Shown: piece by piece, positions 5,056-62,109 of the stretch | Layout: every line of letters begins with the position of its first letter | How positions within the stretch are numbered: position 1 is the stretch's first letter | Source of the DNA: Nitrospira sp. | GTDB taxonomy: Bacteria > Nitrospirota > Nitrospiria > Nitrospirales > Nitrospiraceae | Length of the DNA stretch: 64,000 nt | Direction of reading: 5' to 3' | Assembly (NCBI GenBank): GCA_016873495.1 | Contig: VGXC01000011.1 | Coordinates: 1 to 64,000, forward strand | The notes under the pieces: model-generated | What the model saw: only the letters and a program-made list of their open reading frames with translations | The model's database searches: none | Told to the model about the DNA's origin: nothing | Made by a program: the position numbers and the translations under genes

Positions 5056-5310
5056 GGATGCTACTCCTCTGTGTGGACCCCCCACTGCGAACGAGGCTCA
5101 TTATACCGGAATCGACGGGCCGATGCGACTCCCGGGGCGCCGGGCGGTCCGGGACGGGGCTCTTGACCGTCACCCGATCCGTCGAGTATCTTACTCCGAG
5201 CGCGTGAGGGGATGCAGACCGCACGCGTGATCACTTGAGGGTGTTCTCCGGCGGCCGAGAGTGATCTGAAGGGCAGCCGGTTCACACGAAGTCTTGGAGG
5301 GAGGCGGGCC

Positions 5311-11936: not shown

Positions 11937-11953
11937 GTGCGATCTCCTGAGGA

Positions 11954-12370
11954 CTACAGATGGGACTTGATGGCGCGGACGAGGGGCCCCAGCAGGGGGA
12001 CTCGCTCGTATAACAACGCGCCTACGTCGAAGTAGTCACGATGATATACGACCTTGTCCGCGAATCGGATGTGCGTGGCGCCGGGCAGATGGAGCAGTTC
12101 GCCTGGGTGGAAGCGGGCATGATGCAGGTGCATAATCCAGGTCAGGACCGCCTGGTCGTCCTGAACGACTTCGGCTTCAAAGGTGAAGCGGCAGCTGTGG
12201 ATGTCGGCGTAGAGCCGTTGGAAATAGGCGCGCAGGGCGGGAAGCCCCTGGATGCGGTGCAACGGATCCTCGAACAGAACCGACTCGTCGTAGAGGTCGT
12301 CGAGCAGCGAGAGCGAAGACCGAGTGAGGCGGTTGTACGTGTCCTTAAAGGTCCCGACCGACCGGCTCAA
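11954..12370 (-). CDS. NTF2/SnoaL-like protein
   Basis: Protein of 138 residues with the cone-shaped NTF2-like pattern: FKDTYNRLTRSSLSLLDDLYDESVLFEDPLHRIQG, then HHARFHPGELLHLPGATHIRF and HRDYFDVGALLYERVP. The frame is open far upstream into the desaturase gene. The best start is TTG 12370, which overlaps the desaturase TGA as TTGA and would be translationally coupled. Similar proteins occur in light- and ChrR-regulated lipid operons. Enzymatic role unknown; the fold often binds or isomerises hydrophobic ligands. Confidence 0.75.
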   Translation of the reverse strand: MSRSVGTFKDTYNRLTRSSLSLLDDLYDESVLFEDPLHRIQGLPALRAYFQRLYADIHSCRFTFEAEVVQDDQAVLTWIMHLHHARFHPGELLHLPGATHIRFADKVVYHRDYFDVGALLYERVPLLGPLVRAIKSHL

Positions 12371-15023: not shown

Positions 15024-15563
15024 TCAGCCCTGCCTGGTCGATTCCGTTGCCTGAGGCATAAAGCGCCGCAGGTGTTCGGCGAGCATGGAGCAGACCATCG
15101 TCAAGTCAAATGGCCAGGCATAGCGCAGCGTCACTAGGGGGTATTGGGCGCGCAGGTGTTGCAGCGTGTCCGGAATCTCCAGTTCCGAGTGCGACCCCCC
15201 CGGGGTGAACATGGATGACAGGACCGTGATCTCCTGCGCGCCGGCGCCGACCAACTCCGCGACGGCCTCTTCGAGCGAGGGGGCGCAGAATTCATTATAG
15301 GCCAGCGCCAGCGGCACGCCGTTCAAGAACGGACGAAGGCGATCGGCCAGCGACTCCAGCCCGGTCCGATAGGGGTCGGTCTGCGCCGTGCGGGGCCACC
15401 GGCGGATCCGTTGGTCCAACTCGATTTCCTCGCTCGTGGCCGATGTGCCGGACGCGCGGCGCTGCGCTTCCAGACGCTTCAGCTTGGTGACCAGTTCCTG
15501 GGGGTAATCTTTCGGCACGCCTCCGTGCCCGACGAGGACGATGCCCTGTGCGGGTGCCGTCAT
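15024..15563 (-). CDS. CbiX-like chelatase (sirohydrochlorin cobaltochelatase family)
   Basis: Protein of 179 residues starting GIVLVGHGGVPKDYP, the first metal-binding histidine, with the second in SSMFTPGGSHSELEIPDTLQHL. This is the single-domain chelatase fold. ATG 15563 has AAGGA 8 bases upstream; the longer frame to 15608 has none. The insert TSEEIELDQRIRRWPRTAQTDPYRTGLESLADRL after the first histidine is longer than in classical CbiXS, so the substrate may differ. Between photolyase and YbgA, and with a B12-dependent light sensor in the window, cobalt/corrin metabolism is a reasonable inference, not proven. Confidence 0.72.
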   Translation of the reverse strand: MTAPAQGIVLVGHGGVPKDYPQELVTKLKRLEAQRRASGTSATSEEIELDQRIRRWPRTAQTDPYRTGLESLADRLRPFLNGVPLALAYNEFCAPSLEEAVAELVGAGAQEITVLSSMFTPGGSHSELEIPDTLQHLRAQYPLVTLRYAWPFDLTMVCSMLAEHLRRFMPQATESTRQG

Positions 15564-15635
15564 AGGAGCGGTTCCTTTCGATGGTGCGATCGTGCTGGAA
15601 TCAATCATGGTGGACCGGTTCCGTATGAGGTTCCC

Positions 15636-17057
15636 TCATCTTACCGGCTTCTCGCGCAGGTAGCGGACCCGGGCTTCCTTGTGATCCACGATTGGAAGGG
15701 GGTAGTCCTGCCCAAGGCGACAGGCATAGCGGCTCTGTTCGTCGATGCCCAAGGTCTCGGGGGCGTGAATGTATTTCGTGGGCACGGAGGCGAGCTCCGG
15801 CACGTATCGGCGGATGTAGTCGCCCGTGGGGTCGAACTTTTTGGCCTGGAGGGCCGGGTTGAAGATCCGATAGCTGGGCATGGCATCCGTTCCGGTGGAG
15901 GCGCACCATTGCCAATTTCCGTTGTTGGCGGCCTGGTCCGCGTCGAGCAGACGCTCCATGAAATACCGTTCTCCGAGGCGCCAGTCAAGGCGCAAGTCTT
16001 TGACGAGGAAGGAGGCGACGACCATGCGCACGCGATTGTGCATCCAGCCGGTTTCGTTCAATTGCCGCATCCCTGCATCCACCAACGGAAACCCGGTTCG
16101 GCCCCGAGACCACGCCTCATAGAGACGGCGGTCTGTTCGGTGCGGCGGGACCGCCGTCGGGCGAAACGGGCCGGTTGCCACGTGGGGGAACGAGGCCAGG
16201 ATGTGTTGGAAAAAATCCCGCCAGATGAGCTCATCCACCCAAGTTTGCGCGCCGGCGCGCCAGGCCTGGTCCTGCCGGGCGAAGGTCATGAGCGCCGCCT
16301 GCGCGGCGCTTCTCGTGGAGAGGGCTCCAAATCGGAAGTAGGGGGAGAGCATAGATGTTTCGTCGAGGGCCGGAAGATTTCTGCCGGTAGCATAACCTCC
16401 CAGGGGGCCCTTGAGAAACCACTTCAGCCGTGTCCTGGCTTCCCGCTCGCCTCCCGGTATGGTCGGCGTCAATTGTTCGTACCCCAGGTCGGCAGCTCCG
16501 GGGAGTTCGCGCGACGTCTCGATGCCGGTGGCGTGTTGGCTGACGGGGCGAGGGACGGTCAGCACGCGCGGGGCGGAAGTCCGCCATTGTTCCCACCACC
16601 GTTTTCGGTAAGCGCCGTAGCGCTGCATCGGTTGCCCGGCAGCTGACGCGATTTCGCCGGCTTCGAATATCACGTGGTCTTTGAATGTATGCACGGCGAT
16701 CCCGTGCTGCATGAGCGCGTGCCTCACGGCGTCGTCTCTGGTGCGGGCGGCCAGCTCGTAATCCCGATTCCAGTAGACCGCCTCGACGCCGGACTCGCGG
16801 GCCATGCGCAGGACTTCTTCGACCGGCTCACCCCGGCGCCACTGCAGGGGTATGCCGAGCGCCGCGAGCGATCGCCCCAGATCGTCCAGGCAGCGGAGCA
16901 TAAAGTTCACGCAGGCCGATCCGAACTGTCCGGATCGCAACAGCGGCTCGTCGAAGACGAACAACGGAATCACCTCGTCGCACTCGGCCAAGGCCGCCGT
17001 TAAGGCCGGCTGGTCATGGACGCGCAAGTCGCGCTTGAACCAAACGAGGCCTTTCAT
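15636..17057 (-). CDS. phrB: Deoxyribodipyrimidine photolyase (class I type)
   Basis: Photolyase/cryptochrome of 473 residues. An N-terminal antenna domain (GLVWFKRDLRVHDQPALTAAL) is followed by the FAD domain with LDETSMLSPYFRFGALSTR, WVDELIWRDFFQHIL, GFPLVDAGMRQLNETGWMHNRVRMVVASFLVKDLRLDWRLGE, and DADQAANNGNWQWCASTGTDA. This last stretch is typical of CPD photolyases using blue light to split cyclobutane dimers. It begins in an ATGA overlap with a small membrane protein. A cryptochrome-like sensor role cannot be excluded, but the active-site Trp/Asn pattern favours repair. Confidence 0.93.
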   Translation of the reverse strand: MKGLVWFKRDLRVHDQPALTAALAECDEVIPLFVFDEPLLRSGQFGSACVNFMLRCLDDLGRSLAALGIPLQWRRGEPVEEVLRMARESGVEAVYWNRDYELAARTRDDAVRHALMQHGIAVHTFKDHVIFEAGEIASAAGQPMQRYGAYRKRWWEQWRTSAPRVLTVPRPVSQHATGIETSRELPGAADLGYEQLTPTIPGGEREARTRLKWFLKGPLGGYATGRNLPALDETSMLSPYFRFGALSTRSAAQAALMTFARQDQAWRAGAQTWVDELIWRDFFQHILASFPHVATGPFRPTAVPPHRTDRRLYEAWSRGRTGFPLVDAGMRQLNETGWMHNRVRMVVASFLVKDLRLDWRLGERYFMERLLDADQAANNGNWQWCASTGTDAMPSYRIFNPALQAKKFDPTGDYIRRYVPELASVPTKYIHAPETLGIDEQSRYACRLGQDYPLPIVDHKEARVRYLREKPVR

Positions 17058-17494
17058 GGCGCGACCTCCTGTCGGTCATGGGTCTTGCCGGCGGGCGGCG
17101 AGGAGTCGTCGTCGGCAAAGACGGTGCGGCGCCACACGAGATATCCGGCAAAGAGGAGGGTCGTCGCGATGAAGGTCGACCGAATGGCATTGAAGCCCCA
17201 GGCCATCTGGTTTATAGCTTCGCTGGCGATGCCGAACCCGGCGTAGGCCAGACAGAGTCCCCAAGCCCAGGGACGCAGGAAGAGAAACCCATAGCCGATC
17301 GCCAGATGCAGGGCGGGGGATTGCAGTTTGATCAGAAGCCCCATCGGTCCGTTGAGAGTGGTGCCGAAGACTTTGAGGGCATACTCCGGATACAAGGCGA
17401 TGATGACCAGGTCGAAGAGCCCCACGATCAAAAAGAGGCCGCCGAGGAGTTTAATGTCCCGTCCGGTCCGTATCTGTGGTGTTGTGGCGTTCAT
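17054..17494 (-). CDS. Small integral membrane protein before phrB
   Basis: Protein of 146 residues with four predicted membrane helices (about 16-38, 50-74, 78-98, 102-124) and charged ends. Not recognised. Its stop overlaps the photolyase ATG, so the two are cotranslated; 37 bases separate it from the secreted protein upstream. It may be a membrane accessory of the light-stress operon. Confidence 0.7.
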   Translation of the reverse strand: MNATTPQIRTGRDIKLLGGLFLIVGLFDLVIIALYPEYALKVFGTTLNGPMGLLIKLQSPALHLAIGYGFLFLRPWAWGLCLAYAGFGIASEAINQMAWGFNAIRSTFIATTLLFAGYLVWRRTVFADDDSSPPAGKTHDRQEVAP

Positions 17495-17531
17495 GCGTAC
17501 GCTCCTTCGTGCCGGGCGGATGCATTGAGGC

Positions 17532-18080
17532 TTACCACTGCCAGGCCGGCGGGGCGGCTGTCCACCAACCGTCCGGCTTGGCCCCGCGCCAGGCGGCCTG
17601 TTCTTTCCAGAGACGTTCTGTTTCCTTCCGGTCGAGCCTGGTGGCCATAGCGGCGCTCACGTCGGACTGCTGGCGGACGCTGGTCTGGATCATTTCCTTG
17701 GCCATGCGCGCCATCCCGCCCGGCGGGTCCACCAGGTCCTGCGGGTCCTTGTATGCCAGGTTGAAATAAAGCTGATCGACCAGCCCCCACTGTTCTGCCC
17801 GGGACAGATGTTCCAGATATCCGTCGATCGCCTGGTAGACGTAGGTCAAGTAGACATAGCCGGCGGCCGAGGGGCGTTCCCGGATCAATTCCTCGCAGGC
17901 TTGGAGCGCATGGCGGTAATCCCCAGCGGCCAGAAAGACCTTGGCCTGCGCCGTATGGCTGGGCATCGGCCGGCCGTCGGCGGCGCGGCTCTGGCCGGGA
18001 TTCAACGATATGAGCGCCAGCCCCAGGATCAACCAGCGGAGGTGGCGACGGTTCAAGAGCAGCCTGAGCGTGGGCATCAT
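17532..18080 (-). CDS. Exported hypothetical protein, weak TPR character
   Basis: Protein of 182 residues with an N-terminal signal (LRWLILGLALISLNPGQSRAAD) after a basic start. AQAKVFLAAGDYRHALQACEELIRERPSAAGYVYLTYVYQAI has the spacing of two tetratricopeptide helices. The C-terminus is Trp-rich (GWWTAAPPAWQW), which is unusual. The start has AGAGG 7 bases upstream. No family recognised; probably periplasmic. Confidence 0.65.
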   Translation of the reverse strand: MMPTLRLLLNRRHLRWLILGLALISLNPGQSRAADGRPMPSHTAQAKVFLAAGDYRHALQACEELIRERPSAAGYVYLTYVYQAIDGYLEHLSRAEQWGLVDQLYFNLAYKDPQDLVDPPGGMARMAKEMIQTSVRQQSDVSAAMATRLDRKETERLWKEQAAWRGAKPDGWWTAAPPAWQW

Positions 18081-18153
18081 GATGAAACCTCTTTTCTGGA
18101 GGGGCCATGCATAGCTTCGCCCTGTCAGTCACATGATACTGAGTGGGGCAGAG

Positions 18154-18184
18154 GATGATCCCTGCGGATGAGGCAGGGATCATC
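18154..18184. terminator. Perfect 12-bp hairpin between two minus-strand genes
   Basis: GATGATCCCTGC (18154-18165), 7-base loop, exact complement at 18173-18184. No T-run follows on the minus strand. It separates the 114-residue protein gene (18243) from the gene at 17532 and may end transcription or protect an mRNA end. Confidence 0.45.
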
Positions 18185-18242
18185 ACTCGCGGCGGGAGGA
18201 TCCGAAGGAGGTTGCGGCACCCCCCGCACTTGCCAGTCGCCC

Positions 18243-18587
18243 TCAACGCACGTTGAATCGAACCCTGTCGGAGGCTTGGAGAAGCCGGTGATCGGCGGTG
18301 GCCGCCACCACTCGAATCTCGTGCGCCCCCGGCTTGAGTCCCATCAGGGGACTTTGAAATGCCGTCTGGTATTGGCCGTCCACAAATACATGGGCGTGAT
18401 AGGCCTGAGACCCTTTGCGTAACTCGAATTTCACATCGACGTCTTCGCTGGGAAGGGTCTCGCCGTTCCGCGGAGCCAGGATCGTCACCCGTGACCCGTC
18501 ATCGTCCGCTCCAGGGACCTCCGGGGGATAGGCCCAGGCAAGGAGGCCGCTCAGTACAATCAACCCCGCAATCACGGGCGTCCGCAT
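18243..18587 (-). CDS. Exported Ig-like beta-sandwich protein
   Basis: Protein of 114 residues with a short signal peptide (VIAGLIVLSGLLAWA) and a single beta-rich domain: SRVTILAPRNGETLPSEDVDVKFELRKGSQAYHAHVFVDGQ, ending DRVRFNVR. This has the layout of a small Ig-like domain with a histidine pair (YHAH) that might bind copper; that last point is a guess. The next upstream gene is 14 bases away (PDZ protein), so both are likely expressed together. Confidence 0.65.
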   Translation of the reverse strand: MRTPVIAGLIVLSGLLAWAYPPEVPGADDDGSRVTILAPRNGETLPSEDVDVKFELRKGSQAYHAHVFVDGQYQTAFQSPLMGLKPGAHEIRVVAATADHRLLQASDRVRFNVR

Positions 18588-18601
18588 GGGACCCTCCTCG
18601 G

Positions 18602-19096
18602 TTAGGTCGTTTTCTTTTTCCGGTAGAGGTCTTCTTCGGCCACGCGAATGATGGTCATTTCTTGTATGCTCGTATCCCGCCTCACGCTTACCTTGACGGA
18701 TGTCCCAACCTCGCCCCGCACCATGGTGACGACCTGCTCATAGGTCTTGCCTGCCAACGAGGCGCCGTCCACGGACACGAGCTCGTCCCCATGGGCGAGT
18801 CCCGCTTTACCCGCCGGTCCTTCCGGGTGAACGGTGCCGACGTAGAGAGCCGCCGGGTCTCCGACCCGCTTAGCCGAGAGTTGCAGCGCGATGCCGATGA
18901 CTCCCTTCGGAAAATTCGGATCCTGCCGGTAGCCCGATTCACCGTGGCCTTCTTTCATGCCGGGATGTCCCTCTCCGGCGAGGGCCTTCCCGGTCCGGCC
19001 CAGCGTCAGCAGGCCGAGGGCGACCCACGCGCCCCTGATCAACAGGTCGCGGCGTGAGGAAGTGGGCAGGGTGGCTATGGGTGATGTCTTGCGCAT
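18602..19096 (-). CDS. PDZ-domain protein with Tat-like signal
   Basis: Protein of 164 residues. The N-terminus has the twin-arginine motif SRRDLLIRG and a hydrophobic stretch, suggesting folded export by Tat. A single PDZ domain (about 85-150) is clear: GVIGIALQLSAK, then GPAGKAGLAHGDELVSVDGASLAGKTYEQVVTMVRGEVG. The linker holds HPGMKEGHGESG, possibly metal-binding. There is no protease domain, so it is probably an adaptor or scaffold in the periplasm. Confidence 0.75.
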   Translation of the reverse strand: MRKTSPIATLPTSSRRDLLIRGAWVALGLLTLGRTGKALAGEGHPGMKEGHGESGYRQDPNFPKGVIGIALQLSAKRVGDPAALYVGTVHPEGPAGKAGLAHGDELVSVDGASLAGKTYEQVVTMVRGEVGTSVKVSVRRDTSIQEMTIIRVAEEDLYRKKKTT

Positions 19097-19136
19097 GATC
19101 GATTCCCTCCGTGATGGTGAAGGATGCCTGCATAAT

Positions 19137-19156
19137 GCCGACCCTTTCCGGTCGGC
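19137..19156. terminator. Short GC hairpin
   Basis: GCCGACC, 6-base loop, GGTCGGC (perfect 7 bp) in the 96-base gap between the lipoprotein gene at 19193 and the PDZ gene. No T-run. Confidence 0.35.
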
Positions 19157-19192
19157 CGTGCCACTGCATCGTCGTCCTCGCCTCTGTGACGC

Positions 19193-19537
19193 TCAGTACA
19201 CCCGGTTATGCGGAATCTGCCGACGATATTCCCGTGCCATGGAGTCGGCTTCGTCGGCTTCCGCCAACAGGGACTTGGCCAGATCGAGGCTGTGCAGCGT
19301 TTCCGCGTGCTGGGCTCCTTTGAGCCGCGCCAACACCTGGGCTTCCAGTTCGTAACGCTGCGCGATTTCGCGGAGTGCCGTCGCCTGGCGTTTGTATTGA
19401 AATGCCAGATCGTGAGCCTGCGGCGTCATCGATTGCTGCAACGCGCTCGGCTCGGCGGGTGTGGTTGCCGCACATCCGATCGCTCCGGACAGGGTGAGCA
19501 TCAGCATAGTGCCGATGATGATTGGTGTGGATTTCAT
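19193..19537 (-). CDS. Predicted lipoprotein with helical domain
   Basis: Protein of 114 residues with a lipobox (LSGAIGC, acylated Cys near 22). The mature part is alpha-helical and rich in Ala, Glu, Gln and Arg (YKRQATALREIAQRYELEAQVLARLKG), probably a coiled-coil pair on the membrane surface. Not recognised beyond that. Confidence 0.65.
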   Translation of the reverse strand: MKSTPIIIGTMLMLTLSGAIGCAATTPAEPSALQQSMTPQAHDLAFQYKRQATALREIAQRYELEAQVLARLKGAQHAETLHSLDLAKSLLAEADEADSMAREYRRQIPHNRVY

Positions 19538-19581
19538 GGCGCGCTCTCCTTTCTTTACGGGTGTGTCGGTGATGGCTCCTT

Positions 19582-20556
19582 CTAGAGCGAGGCCTGCATC
19601 GGCATCGCCGTGCGAGGGGCCGTTTCTACAATTTGCTCCAGGGCTGCCTTCAAATTCGGATATCGGAAACGGAAGCCGCCGCTGAGGGCGACTGCCGGTT
19701 CTACCCGCTGACCGGTGGTCATCAGCGTGGAGAGCTCACCGAGTGCCAGCCGCAGGGCGAAGGCCGGGACGGGAATCCAAGAGGGACGCCCTAGAGCCCG
19801 TCCCAGGGTCCGGCAGAACTCTTTCATGGTCACGGCACCGGGAGCCACTCCGTTGACCGGTCCTTTTACTTCCTGATTTGTGAGGGTCCACTGGATCAAC
19901 CCGATAAGGTCTTGCCGATGAATCCAGGATACCCATTGGTCGCCTGGCGAAATGGGCCCGCCGAGGAACCATTGGAATGGGAGCAGCATCCGAGGCAAGG
20001 CCCCTCCGTCCGCTCCAAGCACCATGCCGAATCTCATCCGGACCACACGCAGGCCAAGGGCCTCGGCTTTGACGGCTTCCTGTTCCCAGGCTTGCGACAG
20101 GTCGGCCAAAAAGCCGGAGCCGACCGGCGCGTTTTCGGTCAGGGAGCCCCCGGCGCTGGCGCCGTAGAATCCAATACCGGAGGCGTTGAGCAGCACCTGT
20201 GGACGGGAGGCGGTCCGTGGTAGGGCCTGTACCAGCGCGGCCGTGGTTCCGACGCGGCTGTCCCAGAGGAGCTGCTTGCGAGCCCTGGTCCATCGGCCAT
20301 CCGCGATGGGCTCGCCGGCCAGGTTGATAATGGCGTCGGCTCCCTCCAGGGCCTTGGTCCAAGGTCCGAGGCTGCGCCCGTCCCAGGCGAGAGTGACGAT
20401 CGGCAAGGTCAAGTGGCGGACGGTCGCGCCGGGGGCCCGCGAGAGGATGGTAACCTGGTGTCCTGCATGGGCCAGGTGGGCCGCGAGCGGTCTGCCGATG
20501 AACCCTGTGCCTCCGGCAATGACGATGTGCTTGGAGCCCTCTTCATGCTCGCGCAT
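19582..20556 (-). CDS. TIGR01777-family epimerase-like protein
   Basis: Extended-SDR protein of 324 residues: KHIVIAGGTGFIGRPLAAHLAHAGHQVTILSR, then INLAGEPIADGRWT and ASGIGFYGASAGGSLTENAPVGSGFL, diagnostic of TIGR01777 (SulA/YfcH-like), and the C-terminal DUF1731 part from about 265. ATG 20556 has AAGGAG 8 bases upstream; GTG 20565 is too close to that site. Substrate unknown. Homologues often adjoin photolyase and MerR/LitR genes, consistent with the region. Confidence 0.85.
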   Translation of the reverse strand: MREHEEGSKHIVIAGGTGFIGRPLAAHLAHAGHQVTILSRAPGATVRHLTLPIVTLAWDGRSLGPWTKALEGADAIINLAGEPIADGRWTRARKQLLWDSRVGTTAALVQALPRTASRPQVLLNASGIGFYGASAGGSLTENAPVGSGFLADLSQAWEQEAVKAEALGLRVVRMRFGMVLGADGGALPRMLLPFQWFLGGPISPGDQWVSWIHRQDLIGLIQWTLTNQEVKGPVNGVAPGAVTMKEFCRTLGRALGRPSWIPVPAFALRLALGELSTLMTTGQRVEPAVALSGGFRFRYPNLKAALEQIVETAPRTAMPMQASL

Positions 20557-20593
20557 GATGTCCACTCCTTATCCGGCTGTTGCGTCGTCTTCT

Positions 20594-20941
20594 CTATGCC
20601 TCACGGCCTTGCCGATCCTCGTGGCGTCGAGTGGGATCCCCCTCGTCCCGCGCTGCGTCTGCCTGGTCCCGCTCTCCGGGGGGTGTGGAGGCGGTGATCG
20701 CCTGGCCGAACCGCCGCTGTTTGGTGCCGTGCAGGAGATTCGGGCGTTCGGCTATGCGGTTGCGCAGAATCACCGGGTCGATCACCTCGCCGCAGATCGT
20801 ACAGCGGTACGCGGTAAATTCGATCTGCCCCTGGTCGTCTCGCAGGTCCATGTAGGCGGACAGCACCATCAGTCCCCGGCAGCGTGGACATTCCAGCGGC
20901 TGCTCGTCGGCCTGGTTCGCCTGTTGCGGTGTTTCGGTCAC
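20594..20941 (-). CDS. Zinc-ribbon-like protein, paralogue of 24395
   Basis: Protein of 115 residues with LECPRCRGLMV near 16-26 and AYRCTICGEVIDPVI near 44-58: two C-x-x-C knuckles about 25 residues apart enclosing DLRDDQGQIEF. The same pattern, with the D-L-R-D-D-x-G-Q-I core, is in the protein at 24395. The tail is polar and disordered. GTG start. No known family; a nucleic-acid or protein-binding knuckle is likely. Confidence 0.65.
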   Translation of the reverse strand: MTETPQQANQADEQPLECPRCRGLMVLSAYMDLRDDQGQIEFTAYRCTICGEVIDPVILRNRIAERPNLLHGTKQRRFGQAITASTPPGERDQADAARDEGDPTRRHEDRQGREA

Positions 20942-21000
20942 GGCCGCATGCCACCTTTCTTCCGTCCTGGGCGGCTGACTGTCGTCGGAGTCGTACCCTT

Positions 21001-21834
21001 CTAGGGTCCATCGGCGCTCCGCGCACAGCGAAATCCGGTCCCGTGGGTCTGCAGCGCAAACCCGCCGCGACCTCTTGCTGATGTCGTGATGTCGGCCACG
21101 GGGCTATGCCAGGATCCGCCCCGAATCGATCGGACCACTCCCTGCTTGTCGGGACCCTTCGGGTTCATTTTCGGCGCGTGCTTGTAGTATTCCGGGTCGT
21201 ACCAATCGGAGACCCACTCCCTGGCATTGCCGGCCATGTCCTTGACGCCATAGGGTGAGTCTCCACCAGGCAATGACCCGACCGGATATAACGTCTTTTC
21301 CTCTTCCCATTCGCGGTCAAAATTTGCCCGTTTCGACGTCGCGGGTTCATTGCCCCAGGGAAAGACACGGCCATCTGTGCCACGTGCCGCCTTTTCCCAT
21401 TCCGCTTCGGTGGGGAGCCGCTTCTTGGCCCAGGCGCAATAGGCCTTGGCGTCGTACCAGGTCGTCTGGACGACCGGGAGTTGCTCGATGCCCTTCACGG
21501 AGAAGAGCGGGCCGGTGGCATAGGGATTCGGAGGGTTTCGATGGCCGGTGGTCGTGACAAACGCCATATAGCGTTCATTCGTGACTTCAACTTGATCGAT
21601 CGCAAAAGCGTCGAGGTACACGGATCGTTGCGGCCATTCATCCGCCCGGCCTTTGCCTTCCGGATTGCCCATTAGAAATTCTCCGGCTGGAATCGTCACC
21701 ATGGGGACCGAATCAAGCTCTTTCGAAGCCGGTGACGCCGCAATGACCGGAGACTGCGCCCCGGCGCAAGCGATGGCGATGATCACCGTCATCGTTTTCC
21801 AGCAAGTTGTTCTCCTCCGCAAGCCTGGTGTCAT
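21001..21834 (-). CDS. SUMF1/FGE-fold exported protein (copy 1)
   Basis: Protein of 277 residues with a signal-like N-terminus (MTVIIAIACAGAQSPVIAAS), then the formylglycine-enzyme-like fold: VPMVTIPAGEFLMGNPEGKGRADEWPQRSVYLDAFAIDQVEVTNERYMAF, KRLPTEAEWEKAARG, FPWGNEP, GNAREWVSDWYD, RGGSWHSP, THGTGFRCAR. The cysteine pair of true FGE (C-x4-C after GGS) is absent, so it should not make formylglycine. Starts in an ATGA overlap with the gene upstream. Confidence 0.85.
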   Translation of the reverse strand: MTPGLRRRTTCWKTMTVIIAIACAGAQSPVIAASPASKELDSVPMVTIPAGEFLMGNPEGKGRADEWPQRSVYLDAFAIDQVEVTNERYMAFVTTTGHRNPPNPYATGPLFSVKGIEQLPVVQTTWYDAKAYCAWAKKRLPTEAEWEKAARGTDGRVFPWGNEPATSKRANFDREWEEEKTLYPVGSLPGGDSPYGVKDMAGNAREWVSDWYDPEYYKHAPKMNPKGPDKQGVVRSIRGGSWHSPVADITTSARGRGGFALQTHGTGFRCARSADGP

Positions 21835-22199
21835 CTCTTCTGCTCCTTACTCCCTTCGATGGCATGGGACGTATGAATTTTGATTTGGCCGACCAATCGG
21901 TCCACCTGACGCTTGTCGCCCCGCTCAGCCGCCTCTTGCGCCTGAGTGACGAGGGTTCTGGCTTCGTGGAGGTGCTGTTCGATTTCGGCCTGCAGGGCGG
22001 GGGAGGCGACTGTTCCCCCTAAGGCCGCCCGATGATAGACCTCCCACGCATGATCCACGGTATGTTCGGCCTCATGGACCACCTTCGCGGTCTCCGGGTG
22101 CGGATTGCGGTTCGGATCGATCGGACCGGCCTGAACCGTCGCAGCCCCCAGGAAGGCACCGAATGAAATTCCGATAACGAGAGCTATGAAGCGTGTCAT
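21831..22199 (-). CDS. Exported helical protein
   Basis: Protein of 122 residues with a signal peptide (ALVIGISFGAFLGAATVQAG). The mature part is helical, with many His residues (HPETAKVVHEAEHTVDHAWEVYHRAAL) and a second helix bundle (EAEIEQHLHEAR-like). It resembles small metal-binding SmmA/DUF-type helical proteins, but I cannot name a family. Coupled by ATGA to SUMF1 copy 1, which suggests joint action in the periplasm. Confidence 0.68.
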   Translation of the reverse strand: MTRFIALVIGISFGAFLGAATVQAGPIDPNRNPHPETAKVVHEAEHTVDHAWEVYHRAALGGTVASPALQAEIEQHLHEARTLVTQAQEAAERGDKRQVDRLVGQIKIHTSHAIEGSKEQKR

Positions 22200-22251
22200 G
22201 TGTGCACCTCCGTCACGATCACACCGCTCTTCAGAACGGTGTCACATTCCC

Positions 22252-23310
22252 TCACGGCTTCCTCGTCGACTGTTCGATCAGCGACCGGAGTTCCAACAGT
22301 TCAACGTTCTTGGGATCAAGGGTCAGGCCGCGAGCCACCGCCTGTTGCGCGTCTGCAAACCGTTCTCTGCCCATCTCAACCAAGGCAGCAATGTAGGCGT
22401 CCTTGATCCGCTGTTCGATCTCGGGAGGGGCGGTTCTGGCGCAACGGAAGCCGAGGCCTACGCCATAGCTGTTATTAAGCGGGTGATTCCAGAACCGGTG
22501 GGTGGCTCTGACCGTGCTCTCCGGCGCGATCCACGATCCGCCGCGAATGACGCGCTTTTCTCCGACCGTCAGCCGGTCAACATAGGTGCCGGTGCCCCCT
22601 AGCCATACGGGTTTTTCAGGCCCGGACGGATTCACCATCGTTTCAAGCCGTCCGTAGTATCGCGGGTCATACCAATCTGAAACCCACTCAAAGACATTCC
22701 CAGCCATATTGAACACACCATAGTAACTGGCGCCCTCCGGATAAGAATCCACCGGCAGGGTCGCGTCATGATTCTTGCCATAGTTGGCTTTAGCCGGATC
22801 GAAGTCATTGCCCCAGGGGTAGAGGTTGGCCCTGGGACCCCGAGCCGCTTTTTCCCATTCCGCTTCGGTCGGAAGGCGTTTGCCACGATACGCACAGTAG
22901 GCTTTCGCGTCCTCCCAATTCACTCCAACTACCGGCTGTTCGGGCTTATTCAAGCGAGGATCATCCCAATAGGCCGGGGCGGCATGACCCTTCGCCCTAA
23001 TGAAGTCTCCATAAAGCTTGTTTGAGACCTCATACTTATCCATAAAGTATGAATCAAGGAACACCATGTGAGCCGGGCCTTCGTCGTTCAATGCGTCGGC
23101 CGACCACGGCGTGTTCATCCTGCGCTCGTACGCAGTGGATTTTTTGCCCGAGTTCGCAGGCGCTTCCTTATCAACTCCCATCACCGACGGCCCATGCCCG
23201 ATGTACACCATCTCTGCGGGAATCGACGATTCATCCGCCTGGCTTCTTCCGGTCGGCAGGCTCACGCCTACTATCAGGACCGCCAGAATTATGGCTTGCT
23301 TCATATTCAT
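22252..23310 (-). CDS. SUMF1/FGE-fold exported protein (copy 2)
   Basis: Protein of 352 residues. ATG 23310 follows GGGAG by 7 bases. Signal peptide AVLIVGVSLPTGRSQA, then AEMVYIGHGPSVMGVDKEAP, YFMDKYEVSNKLYGDFI, GKRLPTEAEWEKAARGP, YPWGNDFDPAKANYG, GNVFEWVSDWYDPRYYG, RGGSWIAPEST and GLGFRCART. A C-terminal extension of about 50 residues looks like one TPR-type hairpin (GRERFADAQQAVARGLTLDPKNVELLEL). FGE catalytic cysteines missing. A close sister of copy 3 in layout. Confidence 0.85.
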   Translation of the reverse strand: MNMKQAIILAVLIVGVSLPTGRSQADESSIPAEMVYIGHGPSVMGVDKEAPANSGKKSTAYERRMNTPWSADALNDEGPAHMVFLDSYFMDKYEVSNKLYGDFIRAKGHAAPAYWDDPRLNKPEQPVVGVNWEDAKAYCAYRGKRLPTEAEWEKAARGPRANLYPWGNDFDPAKANYGKNHDATLPVDSYPEGASYYGVFNMAGNVFEWVSDWYDPRYYGRLETMVNPSGPEKPVWLGGTGTYVDRLTVGEKRVIRGGSWIAPESTVRATHRFWNHPLNNSYGVGLGFRCARTAPPEIEQRIKDAYIAALVEMGRERFADAQQAVARGLTLDPKNVELLELRSLIEQSTRKP

Positions 23311-23383
23311 CACAGGTCTCCCGTCACCGCATGTGTGCGAAGGGGGGGCGGTTTTGCCGCCCGCCCCCTCGAAGTTTCATCTA

Positions 23384-24364
23384 TTACTTCTTCATGCTCT
23401 TCTTGATGCTCAACTTGATGAGATCACGGGTCGCCATGTACTCCTTGTTGCCCGGCTCTGCCGCCAACGCCTTTTCGATGGAATCTATCGCATCGGCATT
23501 CTTCTCCGCACCCATAGCGACGAGCGCTGCAATAAACGCATCCCGCCCCGCCTGCACGGTCTCGTCCGAAGCCGTCGGAGCCGACTTGGCGCAACGGAAT
23601 CCTAGCCCGACCCCATAGGAGTTATTGTCCGGCTGATTCCAGAACCGGTGACTGGTGTGCAGGGAAGTTTCCGGCGCCAGCCAAGAGCCGCCGCGCAGCA
23701 CCTTGACCGGACCCTGATTGGCAAAGTTGTAGCCCTTCTCAGCGCCTTTGGGATTCAACGCGATGCTCTCCTTATAGAATTTCGGGTCATACCAGTCCTC
23801 GACCCATTCAAAAACGTTTCCGGCCATGTTGTAGGCACCGAACCCGCTCACACCGTCCGGGTAAGAGTCCACCGGCGTCGTGCGACCGATATTCTGTCCA
23901 TAGTTGGCCTTCTTGGGATCGAGCTTGTGCCCCCATGGATAATGATTGTCGCCTCCCGGACCTTTGGCCGCCCGTTCCCATTCGGCTTCCGTCGGAAGCC
24001 GTTTGCCTTCCCACTTGCAGAAGGCGTTGGCATCGGTCCAGCTCACGCCGACGACCGGTTGATTGGCCTTGTTGAGCCGTGGGTCGTCCCAATAGGCCGG
24101 CGCCGGGTGGCCTGTGGCCTTCATAAACTCCTTGTAACGCGCATTCGACGCTTCATACTTGTCGATCAGATAGGCATCGAGCACGACCTGGTGCTTGGCT
24201 TCATCTGAATGCTCGTTGCTTCCCATGGTGAACTCGCCTTTGGGAATCGGCACCATGTCCGTGAGGTTCTTTGCCTGTTCGGCGGCTTGTGCCGAGGCCG
24301 CGGCTAATCCTGTCGTCAAGGTCAGCGCGATGACCGCCTGCTTGATGCGTGTGTAAGTCTCCAT
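23384..24364 (-). CDS. SUMF1/FGE-fold exported protein (copy 3)
   Basis: Protein of 326 residues from ATG 24364 (GAGGAGAAAGGA upstream). Signal peptide with ASAQAAE cleavage, then DMVPIPKGEFTMGSNEHSDEAKHQVVLDAYLIDKYEASNARYKEFM, GKRLPTEAEWERAAKGPGG, YPWGHKLDPKKANYG, GNVFEWVEDWYD, RGGSWLAPETS and GLGFRCAK. The same C-terminal TPR-like tail as copy 2 (AEKNADAIDSIEKALAAEPGNKEYMATRDL). FGE cysteines absent. Copies 2 and 3 clearly arose by tandem duplication. Confidence 0.85.
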   Translation of the reverse strand: METYTRIKQAVIALTLTTGLAAASAQAAEQAKNLTDMVPIPKGEFTMGSNEHSDEAKHQVVLDAYLIDKYEASNARYKEFMKATGHPAPAYWDDPRLNKANQPVVGVSWTDANAFCKWEGKRLPTEAEWERAAKGPGGDNHYPWGHKLDPKKANYGQNIGRTTPVDSYPDGVSGFGAYNMAGNVFEWVEDWYDPKFYKESIALNPKGAEKGYNFANQGPVKVLRGGSWLAPETSLHTSHRFWNQPDNNSYGVGLGFRCAKSAPTASDETVQAGRDAFIAALVAMGAEKNADAIDSIEKALAAEPGNKEYMATRDLIKLSIKKSMKK

Positions 24365-24394
24365 GTCCTTTCTCCTCCTCAATATTGAGCGCCG

Positions 24395-24745
24395 TTATGC
24401 GGCGCCCTGGGTTGATTGAACGGCCGACTGTCCGGACATCTGCTCGCTCCTGTGATTGAAAATTGGGGCCGAAGGAGCCCCGGCCCATTTGTTCCGGCGA
24501 CTGCTGATCGCCGCCTCGGGATGGAGTCTGTTGCGTTCGATCACCGCATCGAGGACATTCCCGCATTGGACGCAGCGCCTGGCGTCGAAGCAGATTTGTC
24601 CTGTGTCATCCCGGAGATCTTCGCAGTACTCCCACACCATCAGGCCTCCGCAGCGTTCGCAATCGGTTCTGGCGAATGAGCGAGAAGAGTCCTCGCGAAC
24701 CGCTGTTGCGACGGCACTTTCCGTTGTTGTTGCTTGCGTTGCCAT
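24395..24745 (-). CDS. Zinc-ribbon-like protein, paralogue of 20594
   Basis: Protein of 116 residues. ATG 24745 with a strong AAGGAGGGA site; the longer frame is not needed. DCERCGGLMVWEYCEDLRDDTGQICFDARRCVQCGNVLDAVIERNRL carries two C-x-x-C knuckles around the same DLRDDxGQI core as the protein at 20594. Ser/Thr/Gln-rich ends. It is the first gene on the minus side of the divergent promoter shared with the light sensor, and heads the run into the SUMF1 genes. Confidence 0.68.
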   Translation of the reverse strand: MATQATTTESAVATAVREDSSRSFARTDCERCGGLMVWEYCEDLRDDTGQICFDARRCVQCGNVLDAVIERNRLHPEAAISSRRNKWAGAPSAPIFNHRSEQMSGQSAVQSTQGAA

Positions 24746-24787
24746 GTCTCCCTCCTTTCTGCTCTGAATGGCTGTCAGCATCACGAT

Positions 24788-24882
24788 TTGTCTAATTCGT
24801 CCAACGTTATGGTCTATGTATAATACAAATTGTCCAATGTGTCAATAGTTATTTAAAAAATTATTTGACACACATTAGACAT
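24788..24882. promoter_or_regulatory. Putative CarH operator region: repeated ATTRGACA motifs and long imperfect palindrome
   Basis: AT-rich island in GC-rich DNA. Read on the minus strand: ATTAGACAA (24796-24788), GTTGGACGA (24805-24797) and ATTGGACAA (24838-24830). Read on the plus strand: ATTAGACAT (24874-24882). Arms at 24831-24847 and 24863-24881 form an imperfect palindrome around ATTTAAAAAATTA, each arm overlapping the -35 box of one divergent promoter. It looks like an autoregulated operator. Confidence 0.6.
24817..24845 (-). promoter_or_regulatory. Promoter for the 24745 gene run
   Basis: Minus strand TTGACA (24845-24840, perfect), 17 bases, TATACA (24822-24817); TTATAC with a 16-base spacer is the alternative. 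The -35 is followed by CATTGGACAA, one of the repeated motifs. Confidence 0.6.
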
Positions 24883-24893
24883 CATGATAAAGT
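24865..24893 (+). promoter_or_regulatory. Promoter for the light-sensor gene
   Basis: Plus strand TTGACA (24865-24870, perfect), 17 bases, TAAAGT (24888-24893). The spacer holds CATTAGACAT, a repeated motif. The -10 ends 13 bases before the ATG and no Shine-Dalgarno sequence is visible, so the mRNA would have a very short or no leader. Confidence 0.6.
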
Positions 24894-24906
24894 AGCCACA
24901 GTTGAA

Positions 24907-25818
24907 ATGAATACACATAGAATTCATAGGGTTGCAAAACTCACTGGGTTGTCAAAAGACGTGATCCGGGTCTGGGAACGTCGATATTCCCTCATCAAGC
25001 CGGCTCGCGGGGCAAATCGCTACCGCATTTACACGGATGAAGACGTAGCCTTGCTCAGGTACGTCAAAGCTGAGATGGAGAAGGGCAACTCAATCGGCGA
25101 TCTGGCCTCGCTCGGGCAGAATGAATTGCTTGCGCGAATGAAAGCAATGCCCGCGCAGGCGATTGTGGAAGCCGAGACCCTTTATGAGCGGTTGCTGAGC
25201 GAGTTGGTGGCGTGCCTGGAGCCGCTCGATCGGATGGTTTTCGAGCGGAAACTTAACGGCGCGGTGGCGGTGATCCCCTTCGAGGAGGCCTTGCATGGCA
25301 TCCTGCTGCCGTTGCAGGAGCGGGTCGGGAAACTTTGGCACGACGGACGAATCAATATAGCCGTGGAACACTATGTGACCAGGCAGGTGCAACAGAAGCT
25401 GTTCTCGGTGATGAACCAATTGCCGGTGAATGAACAGGGGCCGAAGGTCGTGGTGGCCTGTCCTCCGATGGAGGCCCATGAGATCGGGGCGCAGAGCGTG
25501 GCCTATCACTGCAGAGTGAGGGGGTGCCGAGTGTATTACCTTGGGGCCAACGTTCCCTTCGCCTCGCTGGCGGCCTTTTGCGAGCAAGTCCGACCAGATC
25601 TATTGTTGTTGTCGTTGACGGGGATTCTGCCGGAAGCGGAGGCGGAGGCCTTCGTGCGGGGCCTTTCAGAGTCCGTTACAGCCCAGCGTTCGATCATGGC
25701 CGGAGGCGAGGGGGCGAAGCAGATGCGAGAGCGTTTAGCGGAGGGACGGATCGCTGTACTGGACGACTTTGCCGCGCTGGATCGCCGCCTGATCGTGTTG
25801 ACGGCAGCCAATGCCTAG
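24907..25818 (+). CDS. CarH/LitR-type adenosylcobalamin-dependent light-sensing MerR regulator
   Basis: Protein of 303 residues from ATG 24907; the earlier TTG 24865 lies in the -35 box and is rejected. MerR-type helix-turn-helix (VAKLTGLSKDVIRVWERRYSLIKP) at 9-32, a four-helix cap at about 90-175, and a Rossmann cobalamin domain at 178-303. Signatures of the light-sensing group are present: W144-x9-E154-H155 in the cap and E189-x-H191-x-x-G194, the lower axial ligand, spaced almost as in Thermus CarH. In the dark the AdoCbl tetramer represses; light breaks the Co-C bond and releases DNA. It is the first gene before hemE. Confidence 0.88.
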   Translation: MNTHRIHRVAKLTGLSKDVIRVWERRYSLIKPARGANRYRIYTDEDVALLRYVKAEMEKGNSIGDLASLGQNELLARMKAMPAQAIVEAETLYERLLSELVACLEPLDRMVFERKLNGAVAVIPFEEALHGILLPLQERVGKLWHDGRINIAVEHYVTRQVQQKLFSVMNQLPVNEQGPKVVVACPPMEAHEIGAQSVAYHCRVRGCRVYYLGANVPFASLAAFCEQVRPDLLLLSLTGILPEAEAEAFVRGLSESVTAQRSIMAGGEGAKQMRERLAEGRIAVLDDFAALDRRLIVLTAANA

Positions 25819-25860
25819 CCGGAGGGCAGCGACTGCGGACGACCAACCGCGACGCCCGCA

Positions 25861-25890
25861 TTGACACCTTCTCCCTCGCCCACTTAGAAT
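25861..25890 (+). promoter_or_regulatory. Candidate hemE promoter
   Basis: TTGACA (25861-25866), 18 bases, TAGAAT (25885-25890). The -10 ends 9 bases before the hemE ATG and there is no Shine-Dalgarno sequence, consistent with a leaderless message. hemE could also be read through from the regulator gene. Confidence 0.5.
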
Positions 25891-41357: not shown

Positions 41358-41433
41358 GGGGGGCTAGCTCAGTTGGGAGAGCACGACGTTCGCAACGTCG
41401 GGGTCGGGGGTTCAAATCCCCTGCCCTCCACCA
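41358..41433 (+). tRNA. tRNA-Ala (anticodon CGC)
   Basis: 76 bases with the CCA encoded. Acceptor GGGGGGC pairs with GCCCTCC and includes the G3-U70 identity pair of alanine tRNA. Anticodon stem CGACG/CGTCG with loop TTCGCAA gives anticodon CGC. T-arm GGGGG-TTCAAAT-CCCC. Confidence 0.97.
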
Positions 41434-41590
41434 TACCAAGCTTCGCTTGAGCCGGCCCCTTCGATCAATTGGGGCCGGAGAGGTTTTGGGCCTCCAGTAA
41501 TCAAATTCTTCGCTTGCGTGTACCGACGCGCTTTTGATTTGCGCGGCGGAGAACCCCTCCAGCAATCTTGGGGTTCTTTTCTTCGTGTGA
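41434..41590 (+). ncRNA. Structured element downstream of tRNA-Ala (copy A)
   Basis: Directly after the CCA: hairpin CAAGC-TTC-GCTTG (41437-41449); hairpin CCGGCCCC-(TTCGATCAATT)-GGGGCCGG (41452-41478); a conserved linker ending AAATTCTTCGCTTGCGTG (41503-41520); hairpin around CCGACGCGC/GCGCGGCGG (41523-41549); terminator-like hairpin AGAACCCC...GGGGTTCT with T-rich tail (41550-41583) and CTTCGTG. Aligned with 57736-57905, the stems covary while loops and linkers are kept, so it acts as RNA. Not a family I recognise. Confidence 0.65.
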
Positions 41591-41665
41591 CCCGCCGCGT
41601 TCAATCAACTCGCGGCGGATAGTTACTTTGCCACTGGTAATCAAATTCTTTGTAGACGCGTAAGG
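41591..41665 (+). ncRNA. Second, partial copy of the structured element (copy B)
   Basis: Hairpin CCGCCGCG-(TTCAATCAACT)-CGCGGCGG (41592-41618): again 8 bp and an 11-base loop of pattern TTCRATCANNT. Then a linker GCCACTGGTAATCAAATTCTTTG (41630-41652) matching copy A. The first hairpin and the ACCG stem are missing. Confidence 0.6.
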
Positions 41666-41717: not shown

Positions 41718-41754
41718 GGACCAGTTCTCGAAAGGGGACTGGCCCTTTTATTTT
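41718..41754 (+). terminator. Intrinsic terminator closing the tRNA-Ala transcript
   Basis: GGACCAGTTCTC-GAAA-GGGGACTGGCCC (41718-41745; one mismatch, two G-T pairs) followed by TTTTATTTT. The best terminator in the window. It suggests that tRNA and downstream elements form one transcript of about 400 bases. Confidence 0.75.
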
Positions 41755-50498: not shown

Positions 50499-51108
50499 GT
50501 TTCACCAGTTCCCGTTCCACGTCGCGCACGATCTCGTCGGCCAGGGGCTTCGTCCGGTGCTGGTAGCGGGCCACGACGTTGCCTTTCCGGTCCACGAGAT
50601 ACTTCTGGAAGTTCCACTCCACTTCGCCGGGAAACGGACTCTGTTCGGTGAGGTAGCGGTAGAGGGGGTGTTTGTCGCCGCCCTTCACGCTGATCTTCGT
50701 GAACAGTGGAAAGGTCAGGCTGTACTTGGTGTAGCAGAAGTTCTTGATTTCCTGGTTGGTGCCCGGCTCCTGCTGGCCGAAATTGTTGGCGGGAAAGGCC
50801 AGAATTTCAAGCCCCTTCGCCTGGTAGCGCTCGTACATCTCCTGCATGTCCCCGTACTGAGGGGTGTTCCCGCAGAAACTGGCGGTGTTGACCAGCAACA
50901 GAACCTTGCCCTTGAACTGGCCGAGCGAGACGGGTTTGCCGTCGATGTCGTTCAACGTGAAGTCGTACACAGACCCGGTTTGTGAGGCCATCAGGATCGG
51001 TCCTTTCCCGCCCGGCGGTTCCTCCGCCAGAGAATAACTTGGACTGCAACTCAGCACGAACCCCATCAACAACCACAAGTGTCTGGCGCTGACATTGGTG
51101 CTGTGCAT
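50494..51108 (-). CDS. Exported glutathione peroxidase-family protein
   Basis: Protein of 204 residues with an N-terminal signal or lipoprotein-like segment (LWLLMGFVLSCSPSYSLAEE; a lipobox around VLSC is possible). GPx fold: VYDFTLNDIDGKPVSLGQFKGKVLLLVNTASFCGNTPQYGDM with peroxidatic Cys, FPANNFGQQEPGTNQEIKNFC, and VEWNFQKYLVDRKGNVVARY. It is a cysteine, not selenocysteine, enzyme; it reduces lipid or hydrogen peroxides, probably with thioredoxin. Confidence 0.92.
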   Translation of the reverse strand: MHSTNVSARHLWLLMGFVLSCSPSYSLAEEPPGGKGPILMASQTGSVYDFTLNDIDGKPVSLGQFKGKVLLLVNTASFCGNTPQYGDMQEMYERYQAKGLEILAFPANNFGQQEPGTNQEIKNFCYTKYSLTFPLFTKISVKGGDKHPLYRYLTEQSPFPGEVEWNFQKYLVDRKGNVVARYQHRTKPLADEIVRDVERELVKQ

Positions 51109-51123
51109 GGAAGCCCCCTCTGC

Positions 51124-52011
51124 TTATGACAGGCGCTGGAGCGCCGCAATCCGCTCTTCGATCGGCGGATGGGTGGCGAACAGGTGCATGAACCCGTTCG
51201 ACTTGCCGGAAATCTTCATCGTGGCCAGGGCGTCCTGGGTGGTGTATTCCACCTGGGCCCGGTTGACCCACCGGTCGATGGCCCGCAGCGCCGAAATCAT
51301 TCCGTCGCGCCCGTAGGCCTTGGCGGAAAACGCGTCGGCTCCGAACTCCCGCCGGCGCGAGAACCAGCTGATCGGGATCATGGCCAGGAAGGACAGGACG
51401 ATCTGCAGGAACATGTAGACGCCGAAGGCCAGCATCTCGTTGCGCTCGGCGAGGTTCCGATAGACCCAGCGGCTGATGAAGTACACGAACGTATTCATCA
51501 GGCCGGCGAGAACCGTCGTGGTGAACATGTCGCCGTTGTAGACATGGCCCATTTCGTGGGCCAGGACCGCCCGCACTTCCTGCTCGTTGAGGTTGCTCAA
51601 CAACCCGGTGGACACGGCCACCATCGAATTGTTCTTCGTAGGACCCGTGGCGAACGCGTTCGGGTCTTCTCCTTCATAGACCCAGACTTCCGGCATCTTA
51701 ATGCCGACCCGCTGGGCGATGTCCTGCACCGTCGAATAGATCACGTGCTCGGCCTGAGACTTGGGCTGGGTGATCTGATAGCACTCCAGCATGGAACGAG
51801 CCATTTGCTTGGAGAACGCCAGACTGAGGAACGCGCCCCCGAATCCGATAACCATGGCCCAGACCAGATCCTGCTGGTTGACCGCTCCGCGGACATCGAT
51901 GCCGAAGGCCGGCAGGATAAAATTGACCAGCACATGGAACGAGATCGACAACGTCACGAAAATCAATACGTTGGCGATCAGTAACAGCGCCATGCCCTTC
52001 AACCACTTCAT
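51124..52011 (-). CDS. htpX: HtpX-type M48 membrane protease
   Basis: Protein of 295 residues from ATG 52011 (GGAGGG 6 bases upstream). Membrane helices at the N-terminus (about 7-27 and 38-60) and mid-protein; zinc motif HEMGH in VRAVLAHEMGHVYNGDM, third ligand Glu in RRREFGADAFSAKAYG, C-terminal HLFATHPPIEERIAAL. A quality-control protease for misfolded membrane proteins. A perfect -10 TATAAT lies on the minus strand at 52109-52104, with no good -35. Confidence 0.93.
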   Translation of the reverse strand: MKWLKGMALLLIANVLIFVTLSISFHVLVNFILPAFGIDVRGAVNQQDLVWAMVIGFGGAFLSLAFSKQMARSMLECYQITQPKSQAEHVIYSTVQDIAQRVGIKMPEVWVYEGEDPNAFATGPTKNNSMVAVSTGLLSNLNEQEVRAVLAHEMGHVYNGDMFTTTVLAGLMNTFVYFISRWVYRNLAERNEMLAFGVYMFLQIVLSFLAMIPISWFSRRREFGADAFSAKAYGRDGMISALRAIDRWVNRAQVEYTTQDALATMKISGKSNGFMHLFATHPPIEERIAALQRLS

Positions 52012-57658: not shown

Positions 57659-57735
57659 CGGGGCGTAGCGCAGCCCGGTAGCGCACCGCGTTCGGGACGC
57701 GGGAGTCGCAGGTTCAAATCCTGTCGCCCCGACCA
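57659..57735 (+). tRNA. tRNA-Pro (anticodon CGG)
   Basis: 77 bases with CCA encoded. Acceptor CGGGGCG/CGCCCCG, D-arm with GCGCAGCCCGGTAGCGC, anticodon stem CCGCG/CGCGG with loop TTCGGGA giving CGG, T-arm with TTCAAAT. 24 bases after the ald stop, so it may be cotranscribed with it. Confidence 0.97.
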
Positions 57736-57905
57736 CACCAACCTTCGGTTGCACCGCCCGCTTCGATCATATGCGGGTGGATTGGTACGTTGCCTCAAGT
57801 AGGCTTAAATTCTTTCGCTTGCGTGGACCGCTCGCCTATTTTCTTATTGAGGCGAGCGGAGAAACACCTCAAATATCCGGAGCGTTTTTGTTCTTCTTCG
57901 TGCAA
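57736..57905 (+). ncRNA. Structured element downstream of tRNA-Pro (copy C)
   Basis: Hairpin CAACC-TTC-GGTTG (57739-57751); hairpin CCGCCCGC-(TTCGATCATAT)-GCGGGTGG (57754-57780), 8 bp and an 11-base loop; linker with AAATTCTTTCGCTTGCGTGGACCG (57807-57830); perfect hairpin CCGCTCGCCT/AGGCGAGCGG (57828-57860); AGAAA, then GCGTTTTTGTTCTTCTTCGTG. Order, loops and linkers agree with copy A after tRNA-Ala while stems have changed on both sides. Confidence 0.65.
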
Positions 57906-61843: not shown

Positions 61844-62018
61844 AAGGATGTTAATAAAGGCTTCCGGCTTTGTTCTCGCTTGGTTTCCGGCCTCGACGTA
61901 CGTGGCAACGCGAGAGGCAAGGCAACTATCCGCTCGCAGTTGTCGAAGCGACCGGTTCAAGCGAAGCTTGGTATGTACCTCCTCGGCTTTTTCCCTCGAT
62001 GCGACCTTGAAATGGGAA

Positions 62019-62042
62019 CTACGCGCGTCATGGCGCGCGTAG
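62019..62042. terminator. Perfect 9-bp hairpin between convergent genes
   Basis: CTACGCGCG, 6-base loop, CGCGCGTAG. It lies in the 266-base gap between the SPFH gene and the convergent FlgT-like gene and could stop transcription from either side; no T-run. The rest of the gap shows nothing identifiable. Confidence 0.45.
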
Positions 62043-62109
62043 GGTGGGTGGGTGAGAAGGTGCCTTTTGGAGCATCCTGAACCGATGGGCAAGATTGGAT
62101 CGGGCCAGG

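Follow-up and report, generated by a model that had tools for sequence, protein, structure and literature searches.

Repeated sequences with a potential to fold are known in bacteria both behind tRNA genes and dispersed between genes. The tyrT repeats of Escherichia coli include a copy of the tRNA 3' end, and BOX elements form modular arrays. RtT RNA is described as being released from tRNA operon transcripts (Bosl and Kersten 1991, cited in PMC4986893), and BOX elements of Streptococcus pneumoniae are described as small interspersed repeats (PMC3049150). REP sequences and their BIMEs are short intergenic hairpins, which occur in tens to more than 100 copies per genome, form arrays, show compensatory changes in their stems and are specific to lineages (PMC2817692).

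Here, we analyze similar sequences in a stretch of 64,000 nucleotides of a Nitrospira genome (the window). The genome of the window (G000; 3.19 Mb in 89 contigs, 99.97% complete) was compared with a complete relative (G015) and with other relatives, including G003 and G007. In the window, structured trailers directly follow the encoded CCA of tRNA-Ala and tRNA-Pro. We conclude that these trailers are probably arrays of a mobile hairpin repeat of Nitrospiraceae, which is dispersed, REP-like and specific to the lineage, and which follows a new insertion rule. The repeat is undescribed and family-wide; its general kind is already known, while its insertion rule is unusual.

Structure and distribution of the units

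The unit is 70–95 nt long and is comprised of TACC, a small hairpin with a loop of 2–4 nt, a GC stem of at least 8 bp, and a conserved tail, in this order. Alignments of 20 and 21 copies yielded two unit types sharing one frame. In both types, TACC is followed by hairpin 1, CAANC-TTC-GNTTG with variants. The 8-bp stem of type A encloses an 11-nt loop, TTCRATCANNT, and its tail reads ATAGKTACTTTGCCNCCAGT; in type B, the loop is longer and variable, and the tail reads AGAAACACCTCAAGTG. The left junction is fixed between CCNCCA and TACC, and the right-hand boundary is not sharply defined. No terminal inverted repeats were found in the unit consensus, and no target duplication could be defined. 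Neighbouring units are arranged head to tail (110 pairs on the same strand vs. 2 on opposite strands), and the arrays of G015 contain from one to five units.

The original prediction listed three copies of a covarying RNA element, two behind tRNA-Ala and one behind tRNA-Pro. All three GC stems with 11-nt loops are present as claimed, but the layout had to be corrected to A-B-A behind tRNA-Ala and A-B behind tRNA-Pro (Table 1). The middle unit of the first array is short and resembles type B; it gave no separate match to the type B model at E 0.001. Two further copies in the window, the A unit within a MITE and the B unit near the left end, had been overlooked.

Table 1. Units, adjacent genes and related features of the window.
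Feature	Position	Strand	Description
Type B unit	5218..5298	-	Directly next to TTGGAGGGAGG, the Shine-Dalgarno of a short ORF on the + strand (start codon ATG, 5311); conserved in G003
tRNA-Ala(CGC)	41358..41433	+	Encoded CCA is the target end of the array
Type A unit 1	41434..41513	+	TACC, hairpin 1 (41437-41449), 8-bp stem with loop TTCGATCAATT (41452-41478), tail; 80.6 bits; folded
Short type-B-like unit	41510..41572	+	CGCTTGCG hairpin, long stem (~41523-41549) with one mismatch, AGAACCCCTCCAG tail
Type A unit 2	41573..41660	+	Stem 41592-41618, loop TTCAATCAACT; 73.8 bits
Intrinsic-terminator-like hairpin and T run	41721..41751	+	Terminator 41721-41742; possible end of the tRNA-Ala transcript
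Empty site	51100..51125	-	Intergenic, between two genes of the same direction; G015 (L342) has B units in the orthologous gap
tRNA-Pro(CGG)	57659..57735	+	Encoded CCA at the 3' end
Type A unit	57736..57812	+	Model match and fold; stem 57754-57780, loop TTCGATCATAT
Type B unit	57813..57889	+	49.1 bits (type B model) and fold
MITE (CAGGATG... ends)	~61845..62079	-	A unit 61899-61972 near the apex

Pairing is retained in both types. In the type A stem, 96.7% of cells pair, double changes occur in six of the eight pairs, and the covariation score was reached by none of 500 shuffles. In the 21 type B sequences, all 11 predicted pairs are kept in every sequence, with double changes in seven of them; for 123 type B units from a single genome, the paired share of cells is 96.8%, and nine of the 11 pairs have double changes (again, 0 of 500 shuffles). 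As pairing is kept with double changes across copies of both types, the structure is genuine and is being maintained, whether in RNA or in folded DNA, and the selection on structure that was proposed for the three copies thus stands. Counts of stem mispairs, used as a test for the strand, were 14 for G-T vs. 7 for A-C in the two alignments.

Copies were searched for with covariance models of type A (R1) and type B (R2). R1 contains one wrong base pair (column 18 with column 75), which lowers its scores slightly and is not present in R2; a scan with loose stem rules yielded mostly chance stems and was left out. The search that had been suggested for further copies recovered many of them near tRNAs, with E-values down to 5e-23. 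In G000, R1 and R2 had 45 and 47 matches, respectively, at E ≤ 0.01, the two sets overlapping, and a loop-stem pattern had 23 matches in the 3.19 Mb vs. none for the reversed control pattern. G015 carries 135 type B units by R2. Among 396 sampled genomes of the phylum, type B is present in 104 of 110 genomes of Nitrospiraceae vs. one of 286 others. Type A was found by R1 in 29 of 61 relatives; in another family of the order, R1 gave weak matches. In 84,980 species genomes, a strict pattern of the element occurs in 94 stretches; among the matches listed, all are from Nitrospira or Nitrospirae. Viral contigs, phage records and plasmid records contained no match to the unit.

As was suspected, no named family in Rfam matches the unit: searches of the window and of the arrays, at gathering and permissive thresholds, returned only tRNAs and chance matches, and RtT was not among them. 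Literature searches on Nitrospira, on tRNA or Shine-Dalgarno repeats and on the unit sequence yielded no description of it, and otherwise only general papers on REPs.

Sites occupied by the arrays

Arrays open immediately 3' of CC(T/A/G)CCA, with the TACC of their first unit on the same strand as the CCA. The trinucleotide in front of the first unit is CCA in 53 of the 59 arrays of G015 and in 98 of 126 arrays from four genomes; most of the remaining arrays follow the ACA of the MITE. The CC(T/A/G)CCA site is either the 3' end of a tRNA or tmRNA, or the complement of the Shine-Dalgarno sequence (CCTCC) of a gene. The parts thus follow tRNAs, as had been noted, and lie immediately downstream of the CCA in many tRNAs and in tmRNA, but they are not confined to them.

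In G000, a unit directly follows the CCA of 15 of 42 tRNA and tmRNA genes (13 of 40 found by a script, and the two tRNAs of the window by hand), and in G003, of 13 of 42. In G015, nine arrays lie directly behind tRNAs and one behind tmRNA, and four more follow 47–51 nt copies of the 3' halves of tRNAs (Glu-CTC, Arg-TCG, Gly-CCC, and Arg-CCT). These four are probably tRNA ends displaced by genomic islands, since each intact tRNA is situated 2.9–21.7 kb away; a displaced copy of the tRNA end is a described signature of an island (PMC4383910). The four stretches of contig 1 of G015 that lie between an intact tRNA and its 3'-half copy are 4000385-4003292, 646624-668299, 2789165-2798534, and 1649549-1656297.

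Between G000 and G003, the unit-bearing tRNAs tend to coincide (Fisher p 0.0002), and the sharing between G000 and G015 is weak (p 0.045). Functional retention could be an alternative cause of the shared presence of units at particular tRNAs. The set of unit-bearing tRNAs differs between genera, and most tRNAs have no unit. A and B units are exchanged at the same tRNA in the case of Lys-TTT, Arg-CCT, and Pro-CGG. For the last of these, the orthologous locus in G003 has no A unit, and its array opens with a different B unit. In two genera, an antisense array abuts the 5' end of tRNA-Ser(TGA).

Two other repeats were observed behind tRNAs. One is a short element, GGGGGTTCCGAAGGGGGTGYGCCCCCTTCGTGGGG...GGGGGCTGGCCCCCT, at L206, L210, and L218 (own genome), L100, L102, L389, and L376; several of its copies end with a copy of a tRNA 3' end, e.g., of tRNA-Thr (L102) and tRNA-Asp (L206). 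The other, palindromic and directly behind tRNAs at L205, L218, and L092 (own genome), L371, L378, and L381, reads TTGGCGCGAYNGRA...CNGGCAGTGRCGCGCCAG, followed by a conserved stretch up to GGTGTCGC.

The second setting of the arrays is the start of protein genes. In the fetched parts of G015, whose loci were chosen because they bear units, 30 of 60 arrays directly abut TGGAGG, the Shine-Dalgarno sequence of an ORF on the opposite strand, with the start codon usually 8–15 nt from the boundary. CCTCCA is occupied at 31 of 49 Shine-Dalgarno-like sites vs. five of 144 elsewhere, in loci again selected for units and with most of the other sites lying within genes. The functions of ten adjacent proteins are unrelated, including LeuA-like, flagellar rod, MauG, AhpC/TSA, DUF520, and response regulator proteins.

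The leuA locus of G015 (L340) is informative about the transcribed strand. A T-box-like leader (1007-1238, +; E 2.2e-19, 86.1 bits, just below the gathering score of 93) is followed by a unit (1270-1361, -) and by the LeuA-like ORF (from 1374, +). As the T-box lies on the strand of the gene and upstream of the unit, a transcript of the leader would contain the unit as its reverse complement. This gene order supports the conclusion that the transcribed strand at Shine-Dalgarno arrays is opposite to the one at tRNA arrays. Judging by these orientations, a single RNA of a fixed sense, needed if the units are tRNA trailers, cannot explain both settings.

Probable mobility and the origin of the arrays

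Comparison of orthologous loci provides several signs of mobility; neither an excision nor a transposition event was observed. At orthologous gene starts, Shine-Dalgarno sequences without a unit were found at L179, L195, L365, and ca. 51.1 kb of the window, and the leuA gene of L075 has TGGAGG and no B unit. These empty sites come from divergent species, and at any single one of them loss of a unit may be the alternative to non-insertion. Units are also nested in other units, and the apex of the hairpin that hosts them is a frequent position. The MITE of the window is present in G003 at the same place without the A unit; it is widespread in the lineage, where copies with and without the A unit both exist.

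We also observed a difference at the tRNA-Ala locus. In G003, a stretch of 13.8 kb separates two A-unit sequences (contig 4, 57988-71781), where the window has one (41459-41539). TCTTCGATCAAAT is common to the junctions of this stretch, in agreement with recombination between A units, the likelier origin of the difference; an integrase island was considered and dropped, the tested ORFs being signal-transduction genes. Elsewhere in the window, two segments of ca. 5 and 10 kb (7288-12355 and 15542-25884) are absent from the syntenic position in contig 4 of G003.

Several RNA-based explanations have to be weighed against a mobile repeat. The units could be functional tRNA trailers, co-transcribed with the tRNA and acting in 3' processing, in protection, or as small RNAs after cleavage, with all other copies as by-products. 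This would account for the strong covariation of the stems and for the units behind the CCA in G000, G003, and G015, the tmRNA and the displaced ends included. Co-transcription, as suggested in the original prediction, is plausible for tRNA-Ala, which has a promoter-like TATAAT upstream and a terminator-like part downstream of the array. A trailer RNA as such is nevertheless quite unlikely, given that about half of the G015 arrays are situated away from tRNAs, at Shine-Dalgarno sequences of the opposite strand, and are read in the opposite sense, that the unit-bearing set varies between genera with most tRNAs unit-free, and that A and B replace each other at three tRNAs. It is still less likely that the reverse complement acts as a regulatory RNA in the leaders of protein genes, affecting stability or translation, while the copies at tRNAs are strays: the abutment to the Shine-Dalgarno sequence is exact, and at leuA the unit lies between the T-box-like leader and the Shine-Dalgarno sequence, but the adjacent genes are functionally unrelated, orthologues lack units, and the array length varies from one to five. 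The idea of a T-arm mimic for tRNA enzymes, prompted by the loop UUCRAUC, has lost most of its ground and is now hardly tenable. The first seven letters of the loop do match a T-loop; still, the loop of 11 nt and the stem of 8 bp contrast with 7 and 5 in a T-arm, type B units have an unrelated loop at the same positions after the CCA, and A units reside in MITEs away from tRNAs.

Among mobile elements, the units could be REP elements of a RAYT system, moved by a REP-associated Y1 transposase that has since been lost from some genomes. Like REPs, they are high-copy short intergenic hairpin repeats with compensatory changes (PMC2817692), and Y1_Tnp is present in G015 and 30 other relatives. However, G000, G003, and G007, all rich in units, have no match to Y1_Tnp (PF01797). 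Moreover, the units are head to tail instead of alternating in orientation, and start with TACC in place of GTAG-type words, and the CCNCCA rule falls outside the description of REPs (PMC2817692). We therefore regard this origin as unlikely. The same three genomes had no match to Y2_Tnp or RVT_1, and Y1, Y2, and reverse transcriptase were set aside as mobilisers on the grounds of their absence there.

We thus favour the units being non-autonomous mobile hairpin elements, which would be moved in trans and would insert after CCNCCA. The mobilising enzyme would use the folded strand as its substrate and join the 5' end of the unit to DNA that is cut after CCNCCA. Arrays would then lengthen or shorten through additional insertions and through recombination among units. 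That the enzyme recognises the unit in its folded form would explain the conservation of the structure. Copies would survive at tRNA ends and ribosome-binding sites because the target word is found there and an adjacent insertion spares the tRNA or the Shine-Dalgarno sequence; the pattern of sites fits either a preference of the enzyme or mere survival of copies. More tentatively, and with less confidence than we place in a mobile repeat as such, the units may represent an undescribed class of single-strand hairpin elements that insert precisely 3' of CCNCCA, and hence at tRNA and tmRNA CCA ends and Shine-Dalgarno complements across the family, by means of a mobiliser that is neither Y1, Y2, nor reverse transcriptase.

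Nitrospira are nitrite oxidisers and comammox bacteria. If the mobile-repeat explanation is true, their repeat has an insertion rule directed at two short words that are more constrained than any others in a bacterial genome, the CCA end of tRNA and the Shine-Dalgarno sequence. The units would then be a natural case of safe-site targeting and a new system in which to seek a mobilising enzyme, as well as a reminder that an RNA-like element with covariation behind a tRNA may be a DNA repeat. The repeat would also add structured sequence to many gene leaders and tRNA transcripts, with possible effects on expression.

Comparison with known repeat systems

The Nitrospira units resemble MITEs in being short non-coding repeats, and one MITE of the lineage carries an A unit; unlike MITEs, they have no terminal inverted repeats or definable target duplication. 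To our knowledge, no target word comparable to CCNCCA is known for BOX elements. Like the units, BOX elements are small interspersed repeats (PMC3049150). Their modular arrays are a further likeness. RtT RNA, as presented in PMC4986893, is similar as a repeated structured sequence behind a tRNA gene, whereas the Nitrospira units have no match to the Rfam RtT family, extend beyond tRNA operons, and contain no copy of the tRNA 3' end.

The similarity to IS200/IS605 elements and to REP systems is in kind only: Y1 is missing in G000, G003, and G007. In the units, the left junction, CCNCCA followed by TACC, is fixed, and the right end is not sharply defined. As for IS91-like (Y2) elements and elements driven by reverse transcriptase, these three genomes have no match to Y2_Tnp or RVT_1. 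REP and BIME sequences (PMC2817692) share with the units all the properties listed at the outset, i.e., short intergenic hairpins, copy number, arrays, compensatory changes in stems, and restriction to a lineage. By contrast, the units of Nitrospira are abundant in genomes without the Y1 transposase and are arranged head to tail, as opposed to the alternating orientation in BIMEs. Each unit has two hairpins, and carries TACC after CCNCCA rather than a GTAG-type word at the hairpin foot. Finally, unlike REPs, the Nitrospira units are positioned exactly at the CCA ends of tRNAs and at Shine-Dalgarno complements.
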